Under the pieces are notes generated by a model. That model made no database searches and was not told the origin of the DNA. It saw nothing but the letters and a program-made list of their open reading frames with translations. DNA of 36,025 nt from a virus, in IMG/VR virus record IMGVR_UViG_3300049812_001538, positions 1 through 36,025 of that record; one strand, written 5' to 3'. This document shows positions 7,076 through 30,821 of this stretch, in pieces (the first letter of the stretch is position 1; each line of letters starts with the position of its first letter). Both the position numbers and the translations under genes were made by a program.

Positions 7076-8062
7076 ATGTCATTCTCAAATACATTCGATA
7101 CTACAAATCCGGGATCTGGTGTTTCCAACAGAGAAGACTTGACTGATGTTTTGTCAATTCTTGCTCCCGAAGAAACTCCTATCCTTTCTTCTGCTTCAAA
7201 GCAGAAAGCTAGTTCAACATTTGTTGAGTGGACTGTCGACAGCCTAAGTGCACCATCAACTGCTGGTGTTGCTGAAGGAGCTGACGTAACAGCCTTCACT
7301 GACAAATTCTCTGGTCGTGCTCGCCTCGGCAACTACGTTCAAAAATTCCGCCGTGACTATATGGTATCAGACCTCCAAGAGGCTGTTGATTCCGTAGGTC
7401 CAGCTAAGATCGCTCAAGCAGAAGCTAAAGCAATCCGTGAAATCAAACGCGACATTGAAGCTACCCTTGCTGGTACTCAAGACCGCTCTGTTGAAAACGG
7501 TGCTGGTACAGCTTATGGTTTACGTGGTTTAGGTGATTGGATTGATTCAGCTGGTCCAGCTGACGTTCCAGCTGCTTTCCGTACTCCAGCCGCTTCAATT
7601 AACGCAGCCGGTAATGCATTCAACGAAACTAAACTTAACTCAATGATCGCTTCTATCTACCGCGAAACTGGTACAGTTAATGATCTTATGTTAGTTGCTG
7701 ATACAGCACTTCGTACAGACATCTCTGACTTCGCACGTAGCGGAAACGCAAATGACGTACGTACAGTTAACTACAACGGTAACGAAACTGCAATTAAATT
7801 ATCTGTTGATTTATATCAGTCAGATCACGGTATTGTTTCAGTTGTAAACGGTAACCCAGATTGTATGCCAACTTCTGCTAATACAGCAAACAGTTTTGGC
7901 TTCTTAGTTAACCCAGAATACTACGGTGTTCACGAGTTAATTCCATTGGGCTCAACTCGTCTCCCTAATATGGGTGGTGGTGAGCGTGGTTATGTTGATT
8001 GTTCCTTGACACTAGGTGTATACCACCCCGGTGCTCACGGTAAAGTCGCTGACTTAACTTAA
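7076..8062 (+). CDS. Major capsid protein (SU10/DUF5309-type, HK97 fold)
   Basis: 328 residues following the scaffold. The N-terminus (TTNPGSGVSNREDLTDVLSI, then LAPEETPIL) and the segment GRARLGNYVQKFRRDYMVSD with IREIKRDIEATL match the SU10-type major head protein family. This is the shell subunit of the icosahedral head. The gene is richer in G+C and more regular in codon use than its neighbours, as expected for a very highly expressed gene. The start is preceded by TATAAT rather than by a ribosome binding site. Confidence 0.9.
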   Translation: MSFSNTFDTTNPGSGVSNREDLTDVLSILAPEETPILSSASKQKASSTFVEWTVDSLSAPSTAGVAEGADVTAFTDKFSGRARLGNYVQKFRRDYMVSDLQEAVDSVGPAKIAQAEAKAIREIKRDIEATLAGTQDRSVENGAGTAYGLRGLGDWIDSAGPADVPAAFRTPAASINAAGNAFNETKLNSMIASIYRETGTVNDLMLVADTALRTDISDFARSGNANDVRTVNYNGNETAIKLSVDLYQSDHGIVSVVNGNPDCMPTSANTANSFGFLVNPEYYGVHELIPLGSTRLPNMGGGERGYVDCSLTLGVYHPGAHGKVADLT

Positions 8063-13656: not shown

Positions 13657-14499
13657 ATGGACAAGAAAACTGCTAGAGATAAACTTAAAGAATTACGTGA
13701 TTCTTTGTCTCAATTACTTGAAGGCAAAGATTACCAAAGTTCTGAAGAAATTAAAGAGCAGTCCGCTGAAGCTATACAGCAAGCTAGAAAAGCTAGTTCT
13801 ACGCTTAAAAAATCTTTTATTGAAAAAATAAAAGATCTTCCGGTTGTACAGAAGGTAAGTGAACTAGGAACTGCTGGTAGTGTCGCTGTAAGTACAGCCG
13901 CAGTTGCTCAGACAACGGTTGCTATAGACCAAACAGAAGTCTTCGTAGCTAGTGTCGCAAACGATGTTATAGAGGAACGTATCGAGGTTCCTATGTTTAT
14001 TGATACCTTTGTTGATTTCCATTATTTAAATGATTGGGGTCAAGTAGTAATGGCGGAGAAGGTAGAAATTGCTCAAGACTTTGTAGAGAAAGCTGAAGCT
14101 ATCGCCGCACCTTCTGCACCCGCTCCTTCACAATATCAAAGTCCCTCCTCTGAGGGTTCCAAACCTTCATCTTCCGAACCTTCACCATCCCAAGAGACCG
14201 GCGGTCAGAACGAGAAGCAGCCATCTGATAACAAATCAGAAGAGCAATCAGAAAAGGAAGCCAAAGCAGAAGAAAAAAGTCCATCAGAAGAAACTAAAAA
14301 CGATTCAGAAAAAGATAAAGGAGATAAGCAAGAACAAGCCCCACAAGAAAAAACTGAAGATAAACAACCGTCTCAAGAAAATAATTCATCCTCTGAACCT
14401 AGCACAGAATCTAGAGGTGTCAATAATCAATTACCTATAATAGAAACTCCTATTGATATGAATGACACATCAATAAGACAAGTATCACCAACAAGCTAA
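13657..14499 (+). CDS. Coiled-coil plus Ser/Glu/Lys-rich disordered protein
   Basis: 280 residues. Residues 1-70 form a charged coiled coil. Residues about 75-105 are Ala/Val/Thr-rich and mildly hydrophobic, and 110-150 look folded (VPMFIDTFVDFHYLNDWGQV). From about 155 to 255 the sequence is a disordered Ser, Pro, Glu, Gln and Lys tract. The plan, a membrane-proximal helix with a long polar linker, could suit a protein spanning the periplasm during lysis or an adsorption protein, but I do not recognise a family. It sits between the holin-like gene and two more membrane genes. Confidence 0.6.
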   Translation: MDKKTARDKLKELRDSLSQLLEGKDYQSSEEIKEQSAEAIQQARKASSTLKKSFIEKIKDLPVVQKVSELGTAGSVAVSTAAVAQTTVAIDQTEVFVASVANDVIEERIEVPMFIDTFVDFHYLNDWGQVVMAEKVEIAQDFVEKAEAIAAPSAPAPSQYQSPSSEGSKPSSSEPSPSQETGGQNEKQPSDNKSEEQSEKEAKAEEKSPSEETKNDSEKDKGDKQEQAPQEKTEDKQPSQENNSSSEPSTESRGVNNQLPIIETPIDMNDTSIRQVSPTS

Positions 14500-14669
14500 T
14501 GGAATTTTTTAAATATATATTCGATAACTACAAGGACAATATGCTCGGTATGGTATTTGCATACATTGGTATAATATCTATAGTAATGATGTTTCTACCT
14601 AAGGATAACTTCATTTCTAAACTCTTCAGAGAGTTCGCTTCAATCTTTACATCCCTATTCAAAAAATGA
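14499..14669 (+). CDS. Single-span membrane protein (56 aa)
   Basis: The ATG at 14499 overlaps the previous stop (TAATG), and the stop overlaps the next start (ATGA). The 56-residue product has one strong membrane span (MVFAYIGIISIVMMFL, about 18-33) with a basic, amphipathic C-terminus ending in Lys-Lys. It belongs to the membrane-protein block from 13085 to 14992. Function is unknown. Confidence 0.7.
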   Translation: MEFFKYIFDNYKDNMLGMVFAYIGIISIVMMFLPKDNFISKLFREFASIFTSLFKK

Positions 14670-14992
14670 GCCACGAACTAGATTATCCCCTATTTCCAAT
14701 AATTGAACCAGAATATCCATTGTTGCCTATAGAGCAACCAATTGAGCAACCTATTGAGATAGAAGAACCTATATCTATAGTTATATCGGATACACCGTTC
14801 TTCTACATTCCAGATATGCCAGAGTTTTTAAGAGAAGATTTTAAAGGACTAGAGTTCGAGGGAGTACAATACAGTTGGAAAGAGTTCGATTACAGACTTT
14901 CAGTGGATTACAATAGTGTTCCGGAACCAGCATTTGTTGGTTTATTTATGGGACTGTGTCTACTAACATTAACCCTAATCAAGAGGAAATAA
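14666..14992 (+). CDS. Membrane protein with PEP-CTERM-like tail
   Basis: 108 residues. The N-terminal half is acidic and Pro/Ile-rich with near-repeats of IEQP. The C-terminus reads VPEP at 85-88, then a 16-residue hydrophobic span (AFVGLFMGLCLLTLTL), then IKRK. That order of VPEP, span and basic end is the known PEP-CTERM sorting signal handled by host exosortases. No N-terminal signal peptide is visible, so the match may be convergent. It lies at the end of the membrane block, translationally coupled to the gene before it. Confidence 0.65.
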   Translation: MSHELDYPLFPIIEPEYPLLPIEQPIEQPIEIEEPISIVISDTPFFYIPDMPEFLREDFKGLEFEGVQYSWKEFDYRLSVDYNSVPEPAFVGLFMGLCLLTLTLIKRK

Positions 14993-14994
14993 CT

Positions 14995-15075
14995 ATGGCA
15001 TACGGATCGTACAAGAAAAAACCTACTAAAATGACAAAAGCTAGAATAGCAAAAATGAAACCCAAAAAGAAGTAA
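14995..15075 (+). CDS. Lys-rich mini-protein (26 aa)
   Basis: ATG at 14995 with an AGAGGA ribosome binding site 7 bases upstream, and 27 codons including the stop. Ten of 26 residues are Lys and one is Arg. The stop forms TAATG with the next start. It is the first of eight very small genes in a row. Such short polybasic peptides could bind DNA or RNA, but I know of no named family. Confidence 0.6.
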   Translation: MAYGSYKKKPTKMTKARIAKMKPKKK

Positions 15076-15212
15076 TGCACGGTCGAATGATGTCAGTTGT
15101 AGTCCTCGGTAAAAAGGACAAGAAAGGTGCGTGTTGCCCAGCTTGTGCTGCTGAGATGGAAGCTGAACAAAGCAGACGTAAGTTACCAAATTATAACAGA
15201 AGGAAAGTATAA
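15075..15212 (+). CDS. Mini-protein with CCPAC motif (45 aa)
   Basis: The ATG at 15075 overlaps the preceding stop, and its own stop overlaps the next start (TAATG at both ends). The 45-residue product has a GACCPACAAEME centre, where a C-P-A-C knuckle could bind one metal half-site, and a basic C-terminus (RRKLPNYNRRKV). Nothing in the sequence indicates export. Confidence 0.58.
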   Translation: MHGRMMSVVVLGKKDKKGACCPACAAEMEAEQSRRKLPNYNRRKV

Positions 15213-15337
15213 TGCCCCCAGAAAAATATAGTGCAAAGCAAAAGAAATTAGCTAGGTTAGCAATACCTAGAGACAAAATAACAGCAGAGGATTTGGAGGT
15301 CCTAAGAGGTGGAAAGAAAAATATTAAGCGTAGCTAG
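15212..15337 (+). CDS. Basic mini-protein (41 aa)
   Basis: Starts at 15212 within a TAATG overlap and ends at TAG 15335-15337. The 41 residues are mostly helical and basic (YSAKQKKLARLAIPRDKI, then LRGGKKNIKRS). The last 29 bases overlap the GTG-initiated gene that follows. No family is recognised. Confidence 0.58.
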   Translation: MPPEKYSAKQKKLARLAIPRDKITAEDLEVLRGGKKNIKRS

Positions 15338-15425
15338 AAAGCTAGAACAAGCTAGTAAGGCACACGCCGGACAAGCTAAATTATTAAAATCATTAGTCAA
15401 AAATGGCACCAAAAAGAAAAGGTAA
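15309..15425 (+). CDS. Basic helical mini-protein, GTG start (38 aa)
   Basis: There is no ATG in this frame. I choose GTG at 15309 because GGAGG lies at 15295-15299, nine bases upstream. The 38-residue product is a basic amphipathic helix (ILSVARKLEQASKAHAGQAK) ending in a Lys/Arg cluster. It overlaps the preceding gene by 29 bases and the following one by 23 bases. This is the least certain member of the cluster. Confidence 0.45.
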   Translation: MERKILSVARKLEQASKAHAGQAKLLKSLVKNGTKKKR

Positions 15426-15564
15426 TAAAATCTGCCCAGCTGGTATAGCTTGGGCTCGTAGAACTTTTGACAAGTATCCTAGCGCTTACGCTAATATGGC
15501 TGCTTCTAAGTATTGTAAAGATCCTAATTATGCAAAGGGAGCTAAACGTAAAAAGAAAAAGTAA
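15403..15564 (+). CDS. Basic mini-protein with paired Cys (53 aa)
   Basis: ATG at 15403, 53 residues. The core ICPAGIAWARRTFDKYPSAY and NMAASKYCKDPNYAKG looks like a compact conserved module seen in marine phage genomes, with one Cys at each end, and it finishes in a poly-Lys tail. The stop overlaps the next start (TAATG). Function is unknown; a nucleic-acid or virion role is plausible from charge only. Confidence 0.62.
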   Translation: MAPKRKGNKICPAGIAWARRTFDKYPSAYANMAASKYCKDPNYAKGAKRKKKK

Positions 15565-15716
15565 TGGCTGAATTAACAAAAAGGCAAAAGAAAGCTATGA
15601 AAGAACATTCGGTTCATCACAGTGCAAAGCATATGAACTTTATGCGTAAACTTATTAAAGAGGGTTCTACGTTTACACAAGCTCATACTAAAGCAATGAA
15701 GAAGGTAGGAAAGTAA
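15564..15716 (+). CDS. Basic His-rich mini-protein (50 aa)
   Basis: 50 residues from ATG 15564 with TAATG overlaps at both ends. The sequence is Lys-rich and contains a HSVHHSAKH stretch, so metal binding is possible. The segment FMRKLIKEGSTFTQAHTKAMKKVGK resembles short helical DNA- or RNA-binding phage peptides. No named family. Confidence 0.6.
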   Translation: MAELTKRQKKAMKEHSVHHSAKHMNFMRKLIKEGSTFTQAHTKAMKKVGK

Positions 15717-15961
15717 TGGGTGAGCTCAAAAAATGGAGAGAACAAAACTGGGTACGAATCGGAATTGATGGATCAATCCAAGGACCTTGTGGAACCTCAA
15801 AAGATAAGAAAAGACCAGACCGCTGTCTTCCAATGGCTAAAGCAAAGAGTCTCACTAAGTCTGAAAGAGCGGCTACAGCTCGCAAGAAAAAAGCTGGCGG
15901 AGCAAAAGGAAAACAATTTGTAAGCAACACCCCAAAAGCAAAAGTAAGAACCAAAAAATGA
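15716..15961 (+). CDS. Basic phage protein with KKWREQNWVRI and PCG/RCLP motifs
   Basis: 81 residues. The order LKKWREQNWVRIGIDGSIQG, PCGTSKDKKRPDRCLP and SLTKSERAATARKKKA is a pattern I associate with a widespread but uncharacterised phage protein family, in which the two conserved Cys lie in PCG and RCLP. The C-terminal third is highly basic. It is coupled to its neighbours by TAATG upstream and ATGA downstream. The role is unknown; association with virions or nucleic acid is plausible. Confidence 0.68.
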   Translation: MGELKKWREQNWVRIGIDGSIQGPCGTSKDKKRPDRCLPMAKAKSLTKSERAATARKKKAGGAKGKQFVSNTPKAKVRTKK

Positions 15962-16206
15962 GTTTAAATAAAAAAAAGATGAAGTGCAACGTACCTCGCC
16001 GAGATGTTCAAGGCGGTAAGAAGTTCGTAGTAAAAGCTTGTGAAGGTGGTAAAGAAAAGATTATTCGTTTCGGAGATGCGAATATGAAAATCAAAAAAAA
16101 TATACCAGCTCGTAAGAAAAGCTACTGTGCTCGTAGTGCTGGCATCAAGGGCGGCAAAGGAAAGATGTCCGCTAACTATTGGTCAAGGAGAGCTTGGGGT
16201 TGCTAA
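15958..16206 (+). CDS. Basic phage protein with IRFGDANM motif
   Basis: 82 residues. It carries KFVVKACEGGKEKIIRFGD, then ANMKIKKNIPARKKSYCARS and a C-terminal YWSRRAWGC. This [IV]RFGD-NM ... RK-S-CAR ... YW-RR-W-C layout is typical of an uncharacterised family found in many large and marine phages, usually next to structural genes. Four Cys residues could bind metal. It overlaps the preceding gene by ATGA and is directly followed by the nozzle gene. Confidence 0.7.
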   Translation: MSLNKKKMKCNVPRRDVQGGKKFVVKACEGGKEKIIRFGDANMKIKKNIPARKKSYCARSAGIKGGKGKMSANYWSRRAWGC

Positions 16207-18720
16207 ATGTCTAGATACGATACATATAAAGCCGGTGACGATAGAAAGCTAGAAGAACAAGAACTAGGATTCAAAGGCTTCAATGATAGATTACGACCGG
16301 ATCAAATCCAAAGTGGTCTTCTACAAAAGAGTGAAAACGCTAGACTAGATTTAAATGGTCAGTGGCAGTCTCGTAAAGGTGTCCAGAATAGATTATCTCC
16401 TTTTGCGGTTAGTGGTACAGCTCTAAGATTGCCTACAGAAGATGAGGTTACAGCTGGTACAATTATGTTGTTGCCTCATACTATAACAGCTGCAACTGCT
16501 TCTAGTGGAACAATAACGCTAACTACCGCTCAAGCACATAATTTATCAGTCGGAGATACTATAGAAGTAAATGATATTGTTTCTAATGGTGACGATGTAA
16601 ATGGTAGTCAAACTTTAATTGCTGGTACAACCGGAAGTACACTTAAATACACAGTTGGTAGTAGTAGTCCAACTCTTACAGTTACCGAAGGTGCTAACCT
16701 AGGAATTACTACTAGTACTGGACCACAGTTTTCTCCCTTAGATCTTACTACTGGTACGCCTCCAAAGTTTTTACCTTGTGCTGGTGCAGTTATATTAAAT
16801 GACTCCGCGGTATCGGAAGTAACTTGCGGATGTAAGTTCAGTGACCCAAATGAAACAACAGATGAAGAATTTATTTTATTAGCCTCCAATGCAAAAGTTG
16901 TAGCATTTAACACGAGTACACTAGAGTCCTTCGATATGCCACTAAAATCTGGAGAAACAATACCAGAGGATTCATCTATTCTACAAGTATTTAATAAAGT
17001 AATTATATTTAGAGGTGGTCAAATATCCTTAGAGAATGATAAGTTCTTTTCTCCTTTTACAATTAGTGCCGCTAGTAGCAGTGGTACAACTAGAACAATT
17101 ACCACCTTTGGTAATCACGGATTGCAGACTGGGGACTCAGTAGACATCAGTGGAGTCACTGCTACGGAAACTTATATAGGTCAGTACCAAATAACTAGAA
17201 CTGGAGCCACAACTTTCACTTACACCGCAACTGGTAGTGGATCATCTGCGACAACACTATCAGATGCTAAAGTAAGTCCAACTTTTTTATTAGTACCTAA
17301 CGGTGATTTTACGCAACCGGTTAAACTTGCTGCTACTGGATTTGTTATAACTAACGGAGTAGCAACAGCTACAGTATCTAATACATTATCTAAAGGAGAC
17401 ACAGTAGTGCTTACAGTAGCCGGAAGTAGTACATTGACTGCATTTACTGAGTTTACGGTTTCGGAAGCAACAACTTCATTATTTAAATTTTTTGTGAACT
17501 CAAGTGACGTAACTAATCAAACCGATGTAATATTTACACAAAAGGTTTCAGAAGGTCTAGGGTTTACGCACTCTCCGGCTCCTAACTTTGGTGCTTACCA
17601 CAACAAAAGATTAGTAGTACCTTATAATTTTGAGATTACTGGATCATCCGGTAGTGCAACAATTACAGATCGAAATATTAAAGACGAAGTGCTAATATCT
17701 GATATATTAGATTCGGATACATTCGATCAAATATTTTCTCAGTTTCGTTTTAATGCTGGTGGTGCGGACTTCATTGTAGGGTTTCAGTCCTTTGCCAATG
17801 ACCAACTAATTATATTTAATAGAAATAGTATACACACTGTAAATAACACTGTTAATCTAGTATCTTCTACTGTAAAACAAGTTACAGACGAAGTAGGATG
17901 TATAGCTCGCGGAAGTATAGAACAGATAGGATCCGAGATTTTATTTTTATCTGACAATGGTGTTTACGGTATATCCTTCGTAGATGAGTACAACCTTAGA
18001 GGTACTGCTTTACCACTGAGTGAAAGTATAAACAAAACAATACAACGCATAAACAAAGCTCACGCGGACAAAGCCGTTTCGGCGTACTTTGATAATCGTT
18101 ACTATTTAGCGGTTGCATTAGACGATTCTACAGAAAACAATGCTGTTATTATATATAACTTCTTAAATAAACAATGGGAATCTATTGATACTTACGGAAA
18201 TGGAACTACAACTTTTGATATATTGGATTTGATTGTAGCCGGTAAAGGAACAAACAGAGCAGTGTACGCTATAAATAAACAAGGAGGTATACACCAGCTA
18301 GATGTAAATGAAAGCGGACAAGATGCTATTATTTCTACATTAGGTCAAGAGACAGCTACAGCAATAGAAGTTGCTGCCAAGGCTAGAACACGTCAATTTA
18401 CAATAGGAAGCATAGATAGAAAAAAATGGAATGACTTCGAGATACACGCTGAATCCGGTGTGACTTATCCAACTGATTTTTCTATAGTAGCAAATACAGA
18501 AAATATTGATGAAGAAAATATTAGCTTAAATAGTTTAAAATCTTTGAACGGAGGCTCTAACTTAGCGGCTGAAGAAGATGTTGCCATTCGTGGTAGAATA
18601 GGTAACAAGAGAGCATATGGACTCGATATAGAAATAACAAGAGTCACTGGTAGACCTAAACTGAGGGCAGTGAAGGTTTCTGGTGTCGAAACATTTAGAT
18701 CAACAAATAAAGCAATATAA
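16207..18720 (+). CDS. Tail nozzle / tail tubular B-like protein
   Basis: 837 residues. The C-terminal part (about 530-660) contains LIIFNRNSIHTVNNT, VTDEVGCIARGSIEQIGSEI, LFLSDNGVYGIS and VSAYFDNRYYLAVALDDS followed by NNAVIIYNFLNKQWESID. These are features of the beta-propeller-like podovirus nozzle that prolongs the portal channel. The first half contains two copies of a small domain with [HN]NLSVGDT or HGLQTGDSVDISG followed by a FTYT-type strand (about 90-145 and 285-350), probable inserted surface domains. Stop and next ATG overlap by one base. Confidence 0.75.
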   Translation: MSRYDTYKAGDDRKLEEQELGFKGFNDRLRPDQIQSGLLQKSENARLDLNGQWQSRKGVQNRLSPFAVSGTALRLPTEDEVTAGTIMLLPHTITAATASSGTITLTTAQAHNLSVGDTIEVNDIVSNGDDVNGSQTLIAGTTGSTLKYTVGSSSPTLTVTEGANLGITTSTGPQFSPLDLTTGTPPKFLPCAGAVILNDSAVSEVTCGCKFSDPNETTDEEFILLASNAKVVAFNTSTLESFDMPLKSGETIPEDSSILQVFNKVIIFRGGQISLENDKFFSPFTISAASSSGTTRTITTFGNHGLQTGDSVDISGVTATETYIGQYQITRTGATTFTYTATGSGSSATTLSDAKVSPTFLLVPNGDFTQPVKLAATGFVITNGVATATVSNTLSKGDTVVLTVAGSSTLTAFTEFTVSEATTSLFKFFVNSSDVTNQTDVIFTQKVSEGLGFTHSPAPNFGAYHNKRLVVPYNFEITGSSGSATITDRNIKDEVLISDILDSDTFDQIFSQFRFNAGGADFIVGFQSFANDQLIIFNRNSIHTVNNTVNLVSSTVKQVTDEVGCIARGSIEQIGSEILFLSDNGVYGISFVDEYNLRGTALPLSESINKTIQRINKAHADKAVSAYFDNRYYLAVALDDSTENNAVIIYNFLNKQWESIDTYGNGTTTFDILDLIVAGKGTNRAVYAINKQGGIHQLDVNESGQDAIISTLGQETATAIEVAAKARTRQFTIGSIDRKKWNDFEIHAESGVTYPTDFSIVANTENIDEENISLNSLKSLNGGSNLAAEEDVAIRGRIGNKRAYGLDIEITRVTGRPKLRAVKVSGVETFRSTNKAI

Positions 18721-22057: not shown

Positions 22058-25000
22058 ATGGCATTAGATTTAGAATATTTAAGGCAATATAAGAGTCAAA
22101 CAAGTCAGCCTACTGGAGGTCCGACTTTAGACTTAGATTACTTGAGAAAAAAAAGAGAAGAGGAAGAACCTTCTTTGGCTAAAATAGGTGCTGGATTTGT
22201 TACAGATATTGCTATATCAGAAACAGCTAGACTAGGTGGTGCAGCTACTGGAGCAGCTATAGGTACAGCTTTTGCCCCCGGAGTAGGTACAGCTATCGGA
22301 GCTGGCATTGGATACGTTGTAGGTGCATTAGGTGGTGGTGCTATGGGTTCTAGGATACGCCAAAATATAATAGATCCAAATGCTGAGTTAGACCAAGGTC
22401 AAATGGTAGCAGATGCTTTGATAAATCTTATACCGGGAGTCGGAGTTGGTAAATCCGTAGTAAAAGGTATAGCTTCTCAAGCAGCAATCGGTGCTGGTAT
22501 CTCTGGTGGAGCTCAAGTAGTAGAAGCTATTGTAAATAAAGAAGAACTTCCTACTTTAGAAGATTTAACAAAAGCTGGTATAACCGGAGCTGTTCTCGGT
22601 GGAGGATTAGGACTCACTGGAAAAGCATTTGAAAAAGCGTATACTAAGTTTGCCGGTATGCCCACTCGTAATCTGACTGAAGCATTTCGCCGAGGTGATC
22701 CAGATGCTAAGATAATTGTAGATGGAGTAGAGAAAACATCAAAAGAGTTCTCTGATGAAGTAGCTAAAAGATACCAAGATATTGGAATCAATATCAGAGA
22801 GAAGTACGATGATGAATTTATTAGAGCTAAGTTATTGCAAGATATATCTGCTGGTGGTCAGCTAAAAACTAAAGGTGGTAAACTGAAGGTTACTTCAGAT
22901 GAAATGGATTACTACCTACAAAGAAGATTAGCTGAAGGAAAGATTGATTCAAAACTTCAAAGAGTAGAAGACGAAATAAATTTAGATGCTGCATTTTTAT
23001 TAAACAAATCAGATGAAATAGGGAAAACTACATCTGAGTTATCAAAAGGCATCAATGATTATTTGTACGCTAAACACGCAGTTGCTTACAATAAGGCTAA
23101 CCGTTTGAAGTTCGGCGGAGATGGAGCCGCTGGCATATCTACTAAAGAAGCTAAATCTATCATTAGTAAATTTGAAGATAGTGGATTAGATAAAACACTA
23201 AAGAACTCTATTGATAACAGAAAGAAACTTTCTAGGGAAATATTAGATACTCTTGAAGAAGGTGGATTAATATCAAAGAAAGAAGCGGATAGATTGCGTA
23301 AAGAGTTTCCGGACTACGTGCCATTGAATCGCATAATGGATACTGATGATGTAGCCAATACTCAAAAGATTTTAACCTCTAGTTCTACTAGATACGAAAC
23401 ACTACAAAGCGGTGTACGTAGAGCATTTGGTTCAGAGAGAGAAGTATCAGATATAGCACAGAATATCGTAGATAATCTAGGTGGTGCAGTTCGCCGAGCT
23501 GAAGTTAATAAAGCTAATCTAGCTTTTGTTAAGTTACTTAGATCCAATACAGATACTGCTAAAAACTTAGGAATAAAAGTACGAGAGCCTAAGATTGTAG
23601 GAACTCAAGTAATAAAAGATATGTCCGAAGAAGCTCAGTTAGCTAGATCATTAGGAAAGAAACCTAAATCACAAAAGGTTCCTATCTACGAAAGAGCTGA
23701 CAGAAATGTACTTACAGTTTTTGAAGACGGCAAAAGATTATTTGTTGAGTTCGATGATCCTACATTAGCTAGAACATTCAAGGGTTCAGATAAGAGAGAG
23801 TTGAACTCAATTCTTAAAGGTTTGTACGGAATGAATAGATTCCTTGGCGGTATGTACACTAGATTATCGCCGGAGTTCGTTATACCTAATTTGTTCCGTG
23901 ACCGTTCTGAAGCTCTTGTAAATAATCTAGCTAAGATGAAGGGACTACAAGCACTCAAGACTCTTAATCCCATTGAAGATATGAGAGTTATCCGCCGAAA
24001 TCTATTCGGAGGAAAGGCTGATAGTCCAAGACAACAGCAGTTGGATTCTTTGTACAAGCAATTTAAACAAGACGGAGGTAGTACTGGTGGACTAGGATTG
24101 GACACAGTTAAAGACATTGAGAAAAGAATGGATGAATTATCTAAGAAGCTCAATGCACCCACTAAGACTAAAGTAAAAGCTTTGAATGATTTGATTAATA
24201 ACATCAATGAAATTGTTGAGGATTCTACTCGATTTGCTACGTATAGAAATGGATTAGCTTCTGGTATGACTAGAGATCAAGCTGCATTTGCTGCTCGTAA
24301 CAGTTCTTTCGATCCTAAATTAAAGGGTAGAGAAGGAGATGCACTAAAAGCAATATACTTATTCTCTAATCCAGCTATTCAAGGTGCCAAAAACTTCTTG
24401 AGAAGTATGAAGAATCCAAAGGTTGCGGCTACTGTCGGTGGTGGATTGATAGCTGTTACTACAGCTTTAGATAAGTATAACTCAATGATAGATGAGGACT
24501 ATCGTCAAAAGATTCCAAAGTGGAAACTTGATAAGCACTTAACTATCGTAAGAGGAAAGAATGAAGATGGTTCATTAGATTATCTTTCTATTCCTATTGG
24601 TTACTCTATGGTTCCATTTAAGATGGCTGCGGATTTAACTCAACGTATTGCTAGGCAAGATGGAGAACTTGATAACGTTAAAGAGGTTGCTGCTAGTTTT
24701 GGTCAAGCGATGATAGATTCGTATAATCCTATGGGAGGCTCTCCAGTTCCGACTATCCTAAGACCTATGACTGAGTTAGCTCAGAATAAAGATGGATTAG
24801 GTAGAGACATCAGACCTACTTGGTTGGAAACCAAAAACATTAGTGCAACTGAACAGATATTTCCTTGGACTGCCGATACTCAAGGCGGCGAGTTAGCTAT
24901 GTCAATGGCTGATCAATTAAAAGATATGGGATACGAAGTATCTCCAGAGAATCTATTGTACTTATATCAGACTTATACTGGAGGTCCCGGTCAAACAGTA

Positions 25001-25528
25001 AAAAGATTGTTGGATCTAACTTCTAAAATGTACAAAAACGAAAAAATAAATCGAGGAGATGTACCAATCCTTAGAAGATTTTACGGTAGAACTTTCACTG
25101 ATGTATTCGAGAAAAGAACTGGTGACAGATCCATTATAGAGAACTTAGAGAAACAAGAAAATACAGAATCAGCTAAAGCAAGTAGAATAGCTTCTCAAAT
25201 ACTAAGAAGATATAATGAAGCATCTCAATTTGATAAGCAGTTTGTTCTTATAGAGCAACTATCTAGACCAGATGTAAATGATGCGGTTCGACGAAGAGTA
25301 CAAACTAAGTTAGATGAAAAAGCAAAAGGATTAACTTCTATAGATAGACAAGCAAAGAATTTAACAGTAGCTAAGAGAGCCGAGTACTTTAAGGAAAAAA
25401 TAAATACCTTACCTTCGTCTCAAGTACAGCTATATATACAAGACCAAATTGAAAAAGGTGTAATGACACCGAGAGTTCTTGAGGTGATGAGAGACACAGA
25501 GTCATTCAAACAATTCTTTGGCAGATAA
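22058..25528 (+). CDS. Very large internal virion protein with glycine-zipper and LPD38-like region
   Basis: 1156 residues, the largest gene. The start has two LDL[ED]YLR repeats (about 3-9 and 24-30). A glycine-zipper membrane segment follows at about 60-98 (GGAATGAAIGTAFAPGVGTA then IGAGIGYVVGALGGG), of the kind that inserts into membranes during DNA ejection. The C-terminal half contains FAARNSSFDPKLKG, ALKAIYLFSNPAIQGAKNFL, LSIPIGYSMVPFKMA and a PVPTILRPMTEL region, a layout that I associate with the large polyvalent-protein LPD38 region. It probably forms the trans-envelope channel for genome entry. It ends just before the convergent terminator. Confidence 0.72.
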   Translation: MALDLEYLRQYKSQTSQPTGGPTLDLDYLRKKREEEEPSLAKIGAGFVTDIAISETARLGGAATGAAIGTAFAPGVGTAIGAGIGYVVGALGGGAMGSRIRQNIIDPNAELDQGQMVADALINLIPGVGVGKSVVKGIASQAAIGAGISGGAQVVEAIVNKEELPTLEDLTKAGITGAVLGGGLGLTGKAFEKAYTKFAGMPTRNLTEAFRRGDPDAKIIVDGVEKTSKEFSDEVAKRYQDIGINIREKYDDEFIRAKLLQDISAGGQLKTKGGKLKVTSDEMDYYLQRRLAEGKIDSKLQRVEDEINLDAAFLLNKSDEIGKTTSELSKGINDYLYAKHAVAYNKANRLKFGGDGAAGISTKEAKSIISKFEDSGLDKTLKNSIDNRKKLSREILDTLEEGGLISKKEADRLRKEFPDYVPLNRIMDTDDVANTQKILTSSSTRYETLQSGVRRAFGSEREVSDIAQNIVDNLGGAVRRAEVNKANLAFVKLLRSNTDTAKNLGIKVREPKIVGTQVIKDMSEEAQLARSLGKKPKSQKVPIYERADRNVLTVFEDGKRLFVEFDDPTLARTFKGSDKRELNSILKGLYGMNRFLGGMYTRLSPEFVIPNLFRDRSEALVNNLAKMKGLQALKTLNPIEDMRVIRRNLFGGKADSPRQQQLDSLYKQFKQDGGSTGGLGLDTVKDIEKRMDELSKKLNAPTKTKVKALNDLINNINEIVEDSTRFATYRNGLASGMTRDQAAFAARNSSFDPKLKGREGDALKAIYLFSNPAIQGAKNFLRSMKNPKVAATVGGGLIAVTTALDKYNSMIDEDYRQKIPKWKLDKHLTIVRGKNEDGSLDYLSIPIGYSMVPFKMAADLTQRIARQDGELDNVKEVAASFGQAMIDSYNPMGGSPVPTILRPMTELAQNKDGLGRDIRPTWLETKNISATEQIFPWTADTQGGELAMSMADQLKDMGYEVSPENLLYLYQTYTGGPGQTVKRLLDLTSKMYKNEKINRGDVPILRRFYGRTFTDVFEKRTGDRSIIENLEKQENTESAKASRIASQILRRYNEASQFDKQFVLIEQLSRPDVNDAVRRRVQTKLDEKAKGLTSIDRQAKNLTVAKRAEYFKEKINTLPSSQVQLYIQDQIEKGVMTPRVLEVMRDTESFKQFFGR

Positions 25529-29427: not shown

Positions 29428-29605
29428 TTACTTCTAGTATTTGAATTTTAGCTCCCTTCTTGGTTGTGCCGTATCCATCTTTACTTGGTTTAGTAGGACA
29501 AATGTATTTGATTGCTTGAGCTTTATCATTTGCCCACTTCACTTGGTATCCTCGATAGTCTGGGTGCATATCAAAATGCTTGTAGATAATCTCGTATTTA
29601 TTCAT
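29405..29605 (-). CDS. Small hypothetical protein
   Basis: 66 residues. The ATG at 29605 overlaps the methyltransferase stop (ATGA), with AAGGG a few bases upstream, and the end overlaps the resolvase by 23 bases. The sequence MNKYEIIYKHFDMHPDYRGY followed by QVKWANDKAQAIKYICP looks like a small alpha/beta protein with several aromatic residues. No family is recognised. Tight coupling suggests a role with the methyltransferase or resolvase. Confidence 0.62.
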   Translation of the reverse strand: MNKYEIIYKHFDMHPDYRGYQVKWANDKAQAIKYICPTKPSKDGYGTTKKGAKIQILEVNEIPTSE

Positions 29606-30819
29606 AGTACCCTTTTGATAAGTGTTTCAAATGCTTTAGCAGCAGTCTGTGGTACTACTCCATTTCCGAGAAGTCGAAGTCTGTCCACCCTATTGGAAGA
29701 CCCATTAGTTGCTCCACCCAATCGGGGTTTAGCTTCAACGACACGAGGGGCTTCCCATTCGTATTGTTCTTCATTAGGTCTCGCTGGGTATTTTCCCCAA
29801 CTGCATCCGGAAGAAGATTCCTCGGTTTGTTCTCTTGGCTTTCCTTTGAATACGCTCCCTTCCAATCTCTCGATGTCGGTGTCGGATAATTCTGATTGTG
29901 CATTCCGTGAACTTGTTCCCCCAAGTTGTGCTTGCCCCGATCTGTCATCGCTGCTCGACTGTCTTGTTCCTTTGGAGTACCCCAATTCTTCGCATCCTTG
30001 TATGCCTTCACACAAGTTGGGTCCACTTGTTCTCTTAGATTCGCCGGATTGTTCCTCCCCTTTCGTGCAGTCATTGCTTGCTTCTGAGTTGCTTCGTAGC
30101 TCCTCGGCGGAAGAACATCCATTGTATTCGGAGTTGCCCAAGATGCTTGATGTATTACCGCATCCCTCAGTTTCGCTCCGTACTTCGTTCCGTTCTCCCT
30201 CGTTGCTGAGAATCCCTTCTCGTTCATCTCTACATTCTTCGCTACTCCGCCCTCTACGCAGCCCGCTACTGATGGTGTCGGATACGCCAAGGATAAAGAC
30301 TCTTTTTCTCTGATGTGGGAAGCCGACTTCACTCGCTGAGAATATTCCAGCCGTTGCTTTGTAACCCAATCCTTCCAATGTTCTGAGGACATATCTGAGA
30401 ACTGATTCTCCATCTGTGGTTTTTGCTGAGATGATTCCTTCGACATTTTCGAGGAAAACAATTCTAGGTTGGCACTCTCTGATTCCTTCTGCGATGTAAG
30501 GGAAGAGGTGTCTTGGGTCCTCTGTAGCTTTTCTAGCTCCAGCTTGAGAGAATGGTTGGCAAGGGAATCCTCCAGATAGTATGTCCACTTCTCCACGAAA
30601 TTTTCCGTATGGGAAGGTCTTAAGGTTTGTATAGATAGGTGCTGCATCCAATTGTTGCGTTTCCATCTTGTTAACCAAGTTCGCAATTGCGAAGGCTTCG
30701 ATCTCCACATAAGCGATTTCTCGGACATTTGGCAGAACTCTTCTAAGTCCTTTTCCGATTCCTTCGTATCCAGTACAGAGACTGAGGTGAGTGATTGTAT
30801 TTCTTTTGGTAGTATCCAC
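29602..30819 (-). CDS. dcm: DNA (cytosine-5) methyltransferase
   Basis: 405 residues from a GTG codon at 30819. Motif I is LSLCTGYEGIGKG (12-24), motif IV is GGFPCQPFS with catalytic Cys87, motif VI is LENVEG (123-128), motif VIII is QRKRVFILG (170-178) and motif X is VDRLRLLGNGVVPQ (378-391). The target-recognition region (about 180-360) is unusually rich in Ser, Glu, Gly and Asn. It methylates cytosine in duplex DNA, probably to evade host restriction; no cognate nuclease is obvious. Nearly the whole gene is also open in a second frame that carries conserved-looking motifs. Confidence 0.88.
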   Translation of the reverse strand: MDTTKRNTITHLSLCTGYEGIGKGLRRVLPNVREIAYVEIEAFAIANLVNKMETQQLDAAPIYTNLKTFPYGKFRGEVDILSGGFPCQPFSQAGARKATEDPRHLFPYIAEGIRECQPRIVFLENVEGIISAKTTDGESVLRYVLRTLEGLGYKATAGIFSASEVGFPHQRKRVFILGVSDTISSGLRRGRSSEECRDEREGILSNEGERNEVRSETEGCGNTSSILGNSEYNGCSSAEELRSNSEASNDCTKGEEQSGESKRTSGPNLCEGIQGCEELGYSKGTRQSSSDDRSGQAQLGGTSSRNAQSELSDTDIERLEGSVFKGKPREQTEESSSGCSWGKYPARPNEEQYEWEAPRVVEAKPRLGGATNGSSNRVDRLRLLGNGVVPQTAAKAFETLIKRVL

Positions 30820-30821
30820 AT
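29655..30821 (-). CDS. Overlapping second-frame ORF with [YW]xTP repeats
   Basis: 388 codons without a stop, in another frame of the methyltransferase gene. It starts at ATG 30821, which forms the TAATG junction with the exonuclease stop; the methyltransferase GTG is two bases further on. Four [YW]-x-T-P units occur at 180 (YPTPSV), 228 (WATPNTMD), 280 (WGTPKEQD) and 312 (YPTPTSRDWKG). The end reads LNPDWVEQLMGLPIGWTDF at 364-382. I recall these motifs, and KDWVTKQRLEYSQRVKSAS at about 150-168, from phage methyltransferase-associated proteins. It may be a separate protein, a frameshift partner or an alternative recognition region. Confidence 0.5.
   Translation of the reverse strand: MWILPKEIQSLTSVSVLDTKESEKDLEEFCQMSEKSLMWRSKPSQLRTWLTRWKRNNWMQHLSIQTLRPSHTENFVEKWTYYLEDSLANHSLKLELEKLQRTQDTSSLTSQKESESANLELFSSKMSKESSQQKPQMENQFSDMSSEHWKDWVTKQRLEYSQRVKSASHIREKESLSLAYPTPSVAGCVEGGVAKNVEMNEKGFSATRENGTKYGAKLRDAVIHQASWATPNTMDVLPPRSYEATQKQAMTARKGRNNPANLREQVDPTCVKAYKDAKNWGTPKEQDSRAAMTDRGKHNLGEQVHGMHNQNYPTPTSRDWKGAYSKESQENKPRNLLPDAVGENTQRDLMKNNTNGKPLVSLKLNPDWVEQLMGLPIGWTDFDFSEME

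Follow-up and report, generated by a model that had tools for sequence, protein, structure and literature searches.

Coupled, basic mini-genes in a marine podovirus: candidate head-internal proteins resembling the internal proteins of phage T4

The closest known kind of protein to those considered here is the internal protein of phage T4. As described in the accessible part of PMC3012670, the T4 head contains about 1000 internal proteins, and in the packaged head only the lysines of these proteins contact the DNA phosphates; a role in speeding up packaging has been proposed for them (in the portions available of PMC3012670 and PMC7697877). The T4 prohead protease, gp21, is described as cleaving after the Glu of an L/I-X-E motif (PMC9026906, accessible part). 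According to the available text of PMC3281028, evidence for a large contribution of basic proteins to the neutralisation of phage DNA is lacking.

Here we analyse a 36,025-bp IMG/VR record from a marine virus of bacteria, a podovirus; this whole stretch of DNA is called the window below. It contains a cassette of eight very small genes, m1 to m8, which, judging from sequence comparisons, we think probably encode head-internal, DNA-associated proteins of a T4-internal-protein-like kind, made ready-trimmed from coupled mini-genes in a genome in which no prohead protease was found.

Layout and charge of the cassette

The cassette had been picked out in an original prediction as eight tiny, mostly polybasic genes whose starts and stops interlock, and both the positions and the junctions proved to be as described: eight open reading frames of 26 to 82 codons, 416 residues in total, at 14995-16206 (Table 1). 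The junctions m1/m2, m2/m3, m5/m6 and m6/m7 are of the TAATG type with a 1-nt overlap, m7/m8 is an ATGA junction (4 nt), and longer overlaps link m3 to m4 (29 nt) and m4 to m5 (23 nt), while the ATG of the nozzle gene lies directly 3' of the m8 TAA. Late expression, which had been proposed from this placement, fits the gene neighbourhoods. The expectation that automatic gene finding would miss most of these genes holds for SIO1, in which m8 is unannotated, but not for C75C1, in which ORFs of 30 aa are annotated.

Table 1. Features of the window. Locus counts refer to the 177 loci fetched (iterated HMM) and are not natural frequencies, because the loci were fetched using m5 and m8.
Feature	Position	Strand	Loci with homologs	Description
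SU10-type major capsid protein	7076..8062	+		PF17236, 9e-50
Two small putative membrane ORFs	14499..14992	+	5 and 7	upstream of cassette; only in close relatives
m1	14995..15075	+	0	26 aa, net +11; no sequence homolog found
m2	15075..15212	+	5	45 aa, net +7; CCPAC motif
m3	15212..15337	+	14	41 aa, net +7; homologs include Pelagibacter phage HTVC106P
m4	15309..15425	+	28	38 aa, GTG start, net +10
m5	15403..15564	+	104	53 aa, net +14; phrog_27331 (3.2e-25); T4-like homologs preceded by [LI]xE/K (slash, putative cut)
m6	15564..15716	+	5	50 aa, net +10; His cluster; phrog_31838 (6.8e-8); homologs in Prochlorococcus and Pelagibacter phages
m7	15716..15961	+	132	81 aa, net +18; phrog_23735 (3.3e-27); T4-like homologs with E/DLRKW junction
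m8	15958..16206	+	120	82 aa, net +20; phrog_7595 (1.8e-15); T4-like homologs with [LI]xE/[AS]EYQGK junction
Nozzle/tail-type structural protein	16207..18720	+		homolog in phage C75C1 annotated 'head closure Hc3'

All eight proteins are basic, as had been claimed, with net charges of +7 to +20 that give the cassette +97 over its 416 residues; charge per residue ranges from +0.16 to +0.42. By comparison, the 40 other listed genes have a mean of -0.05 per residue, with an SD of 0.065 and a maximum of +0.07, some ORFs such as a methyltransferase lying outside that list, and the most basic 416-aa window among the other 10,042 residues carries +23. Because the other genes are acidic on average and no other stretch of this length exceeds that value, the basic character is local and is not a matter of base composition. 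A lysine-rich, basic mature protein is a hallmark of T4-type internal head proteins, and all eight have it.

Relatives and mobility of the mini-genes

The m5, m6, m7 and m8 proteins are direct HMM members of four PHROG families (Table 1), all of unknown function, and for these families a function is proposed here. The 81- and 82-residue proteins, m7 and m8, thereby belong to uncharacterised phage families as the original prediction had it. The open-access literature searched yielded no functional assignment for the four families, and that on pelagiphages, S-EIV1, HTVC008M and immuto phages no virion proteomics dataset naming the mini-proteins.

Relatives also match or carry the Pfam families DUF5872 and DUF6321, whereas m5, m7 and m8 of the window do not reach these models. 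No window protein exceeds the curated cut-off for either family; that for DUF5872 is exceeded only by the m7 homolog of P-SCSP2, which matches positions 55-112, the C-terminal half (5e-14). A T4-like m5 matches positions 1-39 of the same model (8e-4, below cut-off). Because the m7 homolog thus covers the C-terminal part and the m5 relative the N-terminal part, DUF5872 resembles a fusion of m5 with m7, which would explain why the two genes are constantly adjacent. P-SCSP2, HTVC027P and C75C1 have DUF6321 proteins among their cassette products; the apparent m8 of P-SCSP2 (3e-3) is one of them and not an m8, and is still included among the 120 m8 loci. Several other candidate identities were rejected because their matches lie below the Pfam cut-offs: m2 as a Rad50 zinc hook or HypF finger, m6 as TraF and m8 as DUF5754.

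Metal binding, which had been suggested on the strength of paired Cys or His clusters, was dropped as a common theme, being unsupported for m5 and m8. The aligned m8 homologs have no invariant Cys, and Cys is absent from the T4-like m5 domains examined; two Cys of m7 are invariant in 36 sequences. The conserved Cys/His sets that mark small zinc-binding proteins were thus not found in m8, in the T4-like m5 domains or, beyond those two Cys, in m7, while the CCPAC motif of m2 and the His cluster of m6 have few homologs by which to judge them.

The reading frames of m2-m8 are under purifying selection. When m3-m8 are compared pairwise with their relatives, pN is below pS every time (158 of 158), as it is for all seven genes m2-m8 against locus L085; because pS exceeds 1 from crude counting, only the direction of the difference is used. 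Poor frame conservation, which would have spoken against the cassette, is therefore not what is seen for m2-m8. For m1 the iterated HMM search of the 177 loci gave no sequence match, and its slot holds a Lys/Gly-rich ORF of 24-29 aa in L085, L087, L088 and L015. An additional small ORF separates m5 from m6 in L085, and no match to m3, m4 or m6 was obtained in L087 and L088, so that genes seem to be gained and lost at the coupled junctions.

On sequence evidence, m5, m7 and m8 form a portable module, whose neighbours in unrelated phages vary among head, packaging and lysis genes. Wherever m5 and m7 are both present (102 of 102 loci), m7 follows m5 on the same strand no more than 2 kb downstream, and within 100 nt in 64 cases; m5 occurs, at a median identity of 85%, in 77 loci without a match to seven other window genes (capsid, nozzle and five other structural or neighbouring genes). 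Where the nozzle is present too, similarity exceeds that of the nozzle in 68/68 loci for m8, 22/22 for m5 and 28/33 for m7, in a set of loci that had been selected by m5/m8 identity. A search for the same gene order, proposed as a check in the original prediction, bears out the m5-m7 order; the flanking genes vary among phages. Scaffold and capsid genes flank the mini-genes in P-SCSP2 and HTVC041P; the mini-genes are located between head morphogenesis and capsid genes in MED4-184, between a portal-type gene and the capsid in HTVC027P and 023Pt_psg01, upstream of the terminase in CRP-2 and CRP-3, beside a lysis-type peptidase in HTVC106P, and before the nozzle in the window and C75C1. The placements next to capsid genes, in P-SCSP2, HTVC041P, MED4-184, HTVC027P and 023Pt_psg01, count in favour of a role in the head. 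A CRP-901 protein labelled 'HVA1 family' is an m8 homolog by sequence.

In some phages the genes adjoin lysozyme, tail-spike or reductase genes, outside the head operons. Such positions speak against a role in the head and would suit nucleic-acid or ribosome binders that act inside the cell and are never packaged, for example RNA chaperones or host-takeover factors, and the size, charge and conservation of the proteins fit as well. Nor does any fold match decide the matter: a sequence search of solved structures returned nothing meaningful for m5, m7 or m8, the AlphaFold2 model of m8 (pLDDT 79.7) has a best Foldseek E of 2.3 against the PDB, and the m7 model (pLDDT 75.7) has no Foldseek match there. 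A purely intracellular role would, however, leave unexplained the prohead-protease motifs at three domain starts, the capsid-targeting-like leaders, the co-occurrence with the S77 protease and the fusion to a protease, all described below, and we regard it as very unlikely.

Junctions, leaders and proteases in T4-like homologs

The best evidence for a location in the head comes from T4-like phages. Homologs of m8 are found in HTVC008M, C48C1, Melnitz, immuto and many metagenomic contigs, and all 84 T4-like loci examined (80 fetched and 4 named phages) hold the domain, which sits behind a variable acidic leader of ~15-45 residues or within long proteins. At one fixed offset before m8, 44 of the 55 unique upstream sequences have L/I-x-E (shuffle mean 2.2, maximum 9); the 55 were taken from the 71 loci with a YxGK start motif, 13 loci that lack the motif being left out. 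With a looser pattern, [LI]xE[AGS] at any of three offsets, the count is 48/55 (shuffle mean 0.76, maximum 5), as compared with 23/1740 at other leader positions. For m5 the L/I-x-E motif precedes the domain in 72/77 unique upstream sequences (shuffle mean 1.3, maximum 5). Among copies of m7 embedded in longer ORFs, the strict motif is found in 20/42 (shuffle mean 0.3, maximum 3) and the relaxed [LIVM]xE in 36/42, and Glu occupies P1 of m7 in 65/65.

Because the patterns used to fetch the T4-like loci (EAEYQGKK, KDEETLDE and MTYDEFRE) reach partly into the junction, the fairer figure is the frequency of L/I at P3 given Glu at P1, which is 44/46 for m8 and 72/75 for m5. The overlap of the patterns biases Glu at P1, but for m8 it does not bias L/I at P3. 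The residue that would follow the cut differs between the families, being A/S for m8, K for m5 and D for m7, which indicates that it is the motif that they share and not the domains; K and D are unlike the capsid sites seen. The m4 sequence, too, occurs as a segment of long T4-like proteins.

Capsid-targeting-like leaders begin 38 of 53 of these proteins, as against 42 of 573 other ORFs. Loci L208 and L235 start with MKTFREF and MKTFKEF, to be compared with MKTFKEF in T4 ipI and MKTYQEF in ipII and ipIII, and in some stand-alone copies the leader is joined directly to the domain, as in L296 (MKNFKEFITE followed at the putative cut by KSVPNNPKLW). The leaders have a mean charge of -5.8 and the domains of +12.1 (n=64). 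In T4 itself, used as a positive control with 66 CDS from one fetched genome stretch, a site within 70 aa is present in 8/9 gp21 substrates and in 8/57 other CDS. The mature N-terminus predicted for m8 falls at the point where the stand-alone proteins begin, and those predicted for m5 and m7 fall near it. Homologs of m8 that belong to the YxGK type and lack a leader (e.g. Kolga, HTVC026P) can begin with Met at the predicted T4-like cut point.

The capsid proteins of the T4-like phages point the same way, with an L-x-E ending at residues 52-57 in 6/6 genomes from which the capsid ORF was recovered, out of 7 looked at (LTE, LSE, LSE, LSE, LNE and LGE). An S77 protease (PF03420) is present in 17/21 T4-like records with leader-bearing domains, as opposed to 0/9 mini-gene records. 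Of the four T4-like records in which S77 is absent, two are fragments of 35-54 kb and the others are contigs of 118 and 160 kb; the window is one of the nine mini-gene records. The window has no match to S77, PF14550 or PF04586, and inspection by eye finds no obvious propeptide in its capsid protein. Direct reading of the window proteins likewise reveals neither a capsid-targeting leader nor an L/I-x-E site, and for this reason their location in the head has to be argued from homology.

Several of the domains fused to the T4-like copies belong to enzymes, a cytidylyltransferase for one, which raises the question of whether the mini-proteins are packaged effectors that act in the next host, for instance against restriction or host transcription, after the manner of T4 IPI or Alt. 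IPI is itself packaged and trimmed and blocks a restriction enzyme (PMC3012670, accessible part). The same part of that source, however, describes the T-even internal proteins as highly diverse, as opposed to the 85% median identity of m5 over 77 loci selected by m5/m8 identity, a degree of conservation that points to a universal target, for example nucleic acid. We consider injected effectors quite unlikely.

A further line of evidence comes from the Vibrio phage ICP1. At E<=0.001, 16 predicted viral proteins resemble the AlphaFold2 model of m8 in fold, and one of them is ICP1 ORF125, which lies between the portal and capsid genes in the head operon. Residues 35-159 of ORF125 match Peptidase_S78_2/XkdF (PF14550, 6.6e-10) and an m8 domain occupies residues 184-261 (hhalign E 5e-11; phrog_7595 5.8e-11); in the available text of PMC7567579 and PMC9040626 the protein is a predicted maturation protease. 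By eye the ICP1 domain looks weakly basic, so that charge would not be essential to the m8 fold and is probably not the whole of its function. In ICP1 the domain is thus weakly basic and tethered to a protease, whereas in the window m8 consists of the domain alone. A weaker fold match to m8 was obtained in the giant virus Tunisvirus (E 0.04).

That a weakly basic m8 domain should be fused to a head-maturation protease could mean that the domains are assembly factors, which bind the scaffold or inner capsid, aid assembly or cargo entry, and then leave or stay at low copy, any contact with DNA being incidental. The 'minor head protein and DNA pilot' family phrog_220 also matches the m8 domain, and leaders of the T4 capsid-targeting type act via the scaffolding core (PMC3012670, accessible part). 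In the T4-like phages, however, it is the leader and not the domain that looks like the targeting part, the cleavage motif separates the acidic leader from the basic domain, and nothing would account for how strongly charged all eight proteins are. An assembly role of this kind therefore seems unlikely to us.

Proposed role and comparison with known systems

The features that can be read directly are homology, the junction motifs, protease co-occurrence, the head-protease fusion and selection. Because the relatives of three mini-genes in larger viruses look packaged and trimmed in the head, the cassette probably makes proteins that accompany the genome. The virion location of the window proteins is argued from their homologs, and cleavage is predicted; DNA contact and ejection are proposed by analogy with T4, and m1-m4 and m6 would be included through linkage and charge.

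In the T4-like phages, the m5, m7 and m8 domains would be made behind a capsid-targeting-like leader, singly or in longer proteins, and the prohead protease would probably free them after L/I-x-E. In the window each domain has its own coupled mini-gene and no prohead protease was found, which suggests that each is made ready-trimmed. Here the mini-proteins would be translated late from the coupled message, enter the prohead without a leader and then stay in the head with the DNA, where Lys/Arg side chains probably contact the DNA phosphates and so aid packaging or condensation; they may be ejected along with the genome. The cryo-EM structure of P-SCSP1u shows, in the accessible part of PMC10575957, a capsid built of capsid protein alone, with which disordered internal proteins are still compatible.

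Of the roles put forward originally, action inside the head has fared best, the head interior being the best-supported location in view of the T4-like junctions, the leaders and the ICP1 protease fusion, and DNA condensation there is plausible by analogy; for attack on a host polyanion no evidence was found. If head-internal, DNA-associated proteins are indeed what the cassette encodes, four marine phage families that are abundant but have no known function would gain a testable location and role, and dedicated, conserved basic internal proteins would be widespread in tailed phages, despite the statement quoted above from the available text of PMC3281028. The cassette also draws attention to the kind of small gene that is often passed over in annotation.

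A broader proposal, which we put forward tentatively and judge less probable than not, is that marine tailed phages have in common a kit of head-core modules that can be exchanged between them and form an analogue of viral chromatin proteins. The kit would be deployed as coupled mini-genes where no prohead protease is present, as leader-bearing proteins or polyproteins that are cut where a protease is present, and in one copy tethered to the head protease in ICP1-like phages, with related modules (DUF5872 and the m8-like fold of Tunisvirus) in giant algal or amoebal viruses. In PBCV-1, A278L, A282L and others are basic DNA-binding virion proteins packaged with the dsDNA genome (as described in the accessible part of PMC3281028), to which we liken the mini-proteins by description.

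The comparison with T4 remains the closest. IPI, IPII, IPIII and Alt are small or basic head proteins, and the T4-like homologs of m5, m7 and m8 have a similar N-terminal leader and an L/I-x-E junction. The window proteins differ in having neither leader nor site, in a genome where no prohead protease was found; no homology to the T4 proteins is known, and the window domains are much more conserved and are encoded by coupled mini-genes. Since two defining features of T4 internal proteins were looked for and are absent, we describe the window proteins as like that group and not as members of it. What results is a natural comparison, in which the same set of proteins would be obtained from protease-cut precursors in one type of phage and from separate mini-genes in another.

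Large ORFs of the window outside the cassette

The large protein carrying LPD38 (large polyvalent protein associated domain 38) also features glycine-zipper-like stretches, and is probably a large ejected protein. On the minus strand, residues 1–247 of the 405-aa ORF constitute a C5 cytosine methyltransferase (PF00145, 8e-36, Pfam). The 388-aa ORF overlapping it has no match in Pfam, although its C-terminal end looks similar to a phage methyltransferase C-terminus; either a frameshift or a genuine overlap could account for the pair.

Features of the window and of related phages
Feature	Location	Strand	Length	Basis or remark
LPD38 protein	window 22058-25528		1156 aa	LPD38, 3.8e-22
Two overlapping long ORFs	window 29602-30821	-	405 aa + 388 aa	different frames
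Extra small ORF, closest relative	L085:4440-4610			between m5 and m6
m8 homolog, Roseobacter phage SIO1	L168:4001-4222
ORF125, Vibrio phage ICP1	L279:7709-8545			predicted head-maturation protease + m8 domain
DUF5824-like protein, phage C48C1	L184:24855-25127		90 aa	sequence likeness

The mini-gene cassette in relatives

In the closest relative, the extra ORF is coupled to its neighbors, the small basic genes m5 and m6, by start-stop junctions like those of the cassette. The RefSeq record of SIO1, a classic phage, carries no annotation for its homolog of m8, the last cassette gene. Several phages, marine as well as freshwater (L174, L178, L167, L172), have GroES or GroEL genes near their mini-gene cluster or m8 homolog.

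Cassette domains within larger proteins

In ICP1, the m8 domain forms the C-terminal part of the predicted protease, a part also matched by phrog_220, “minor head protein and DNA pilot.” T4-like proteins of 500–1100 aa, seen in long ORFs of L244, L207, L202, L192, L195, and L180 (Melnitz), link in series small, basic modules of the m5, m7, m8, and DUF5824 types and domains that resemble enzymes. L/I-x-E sites, the motif after which the T4 prohead protease gp21 cleaves, separate the modules, a layout that, judged from sequence, looks like that of polyproteins for the prohead protease. The C48C1 protein, similar in sequence to the DUF5824 module that HTVC008M and Melnitz carry, is preceded by an acidic leader and then an LEE|G site (bar, predicted cut); acidic leader, putative site, and domain follow a layout identical to that of the m8 homolog.
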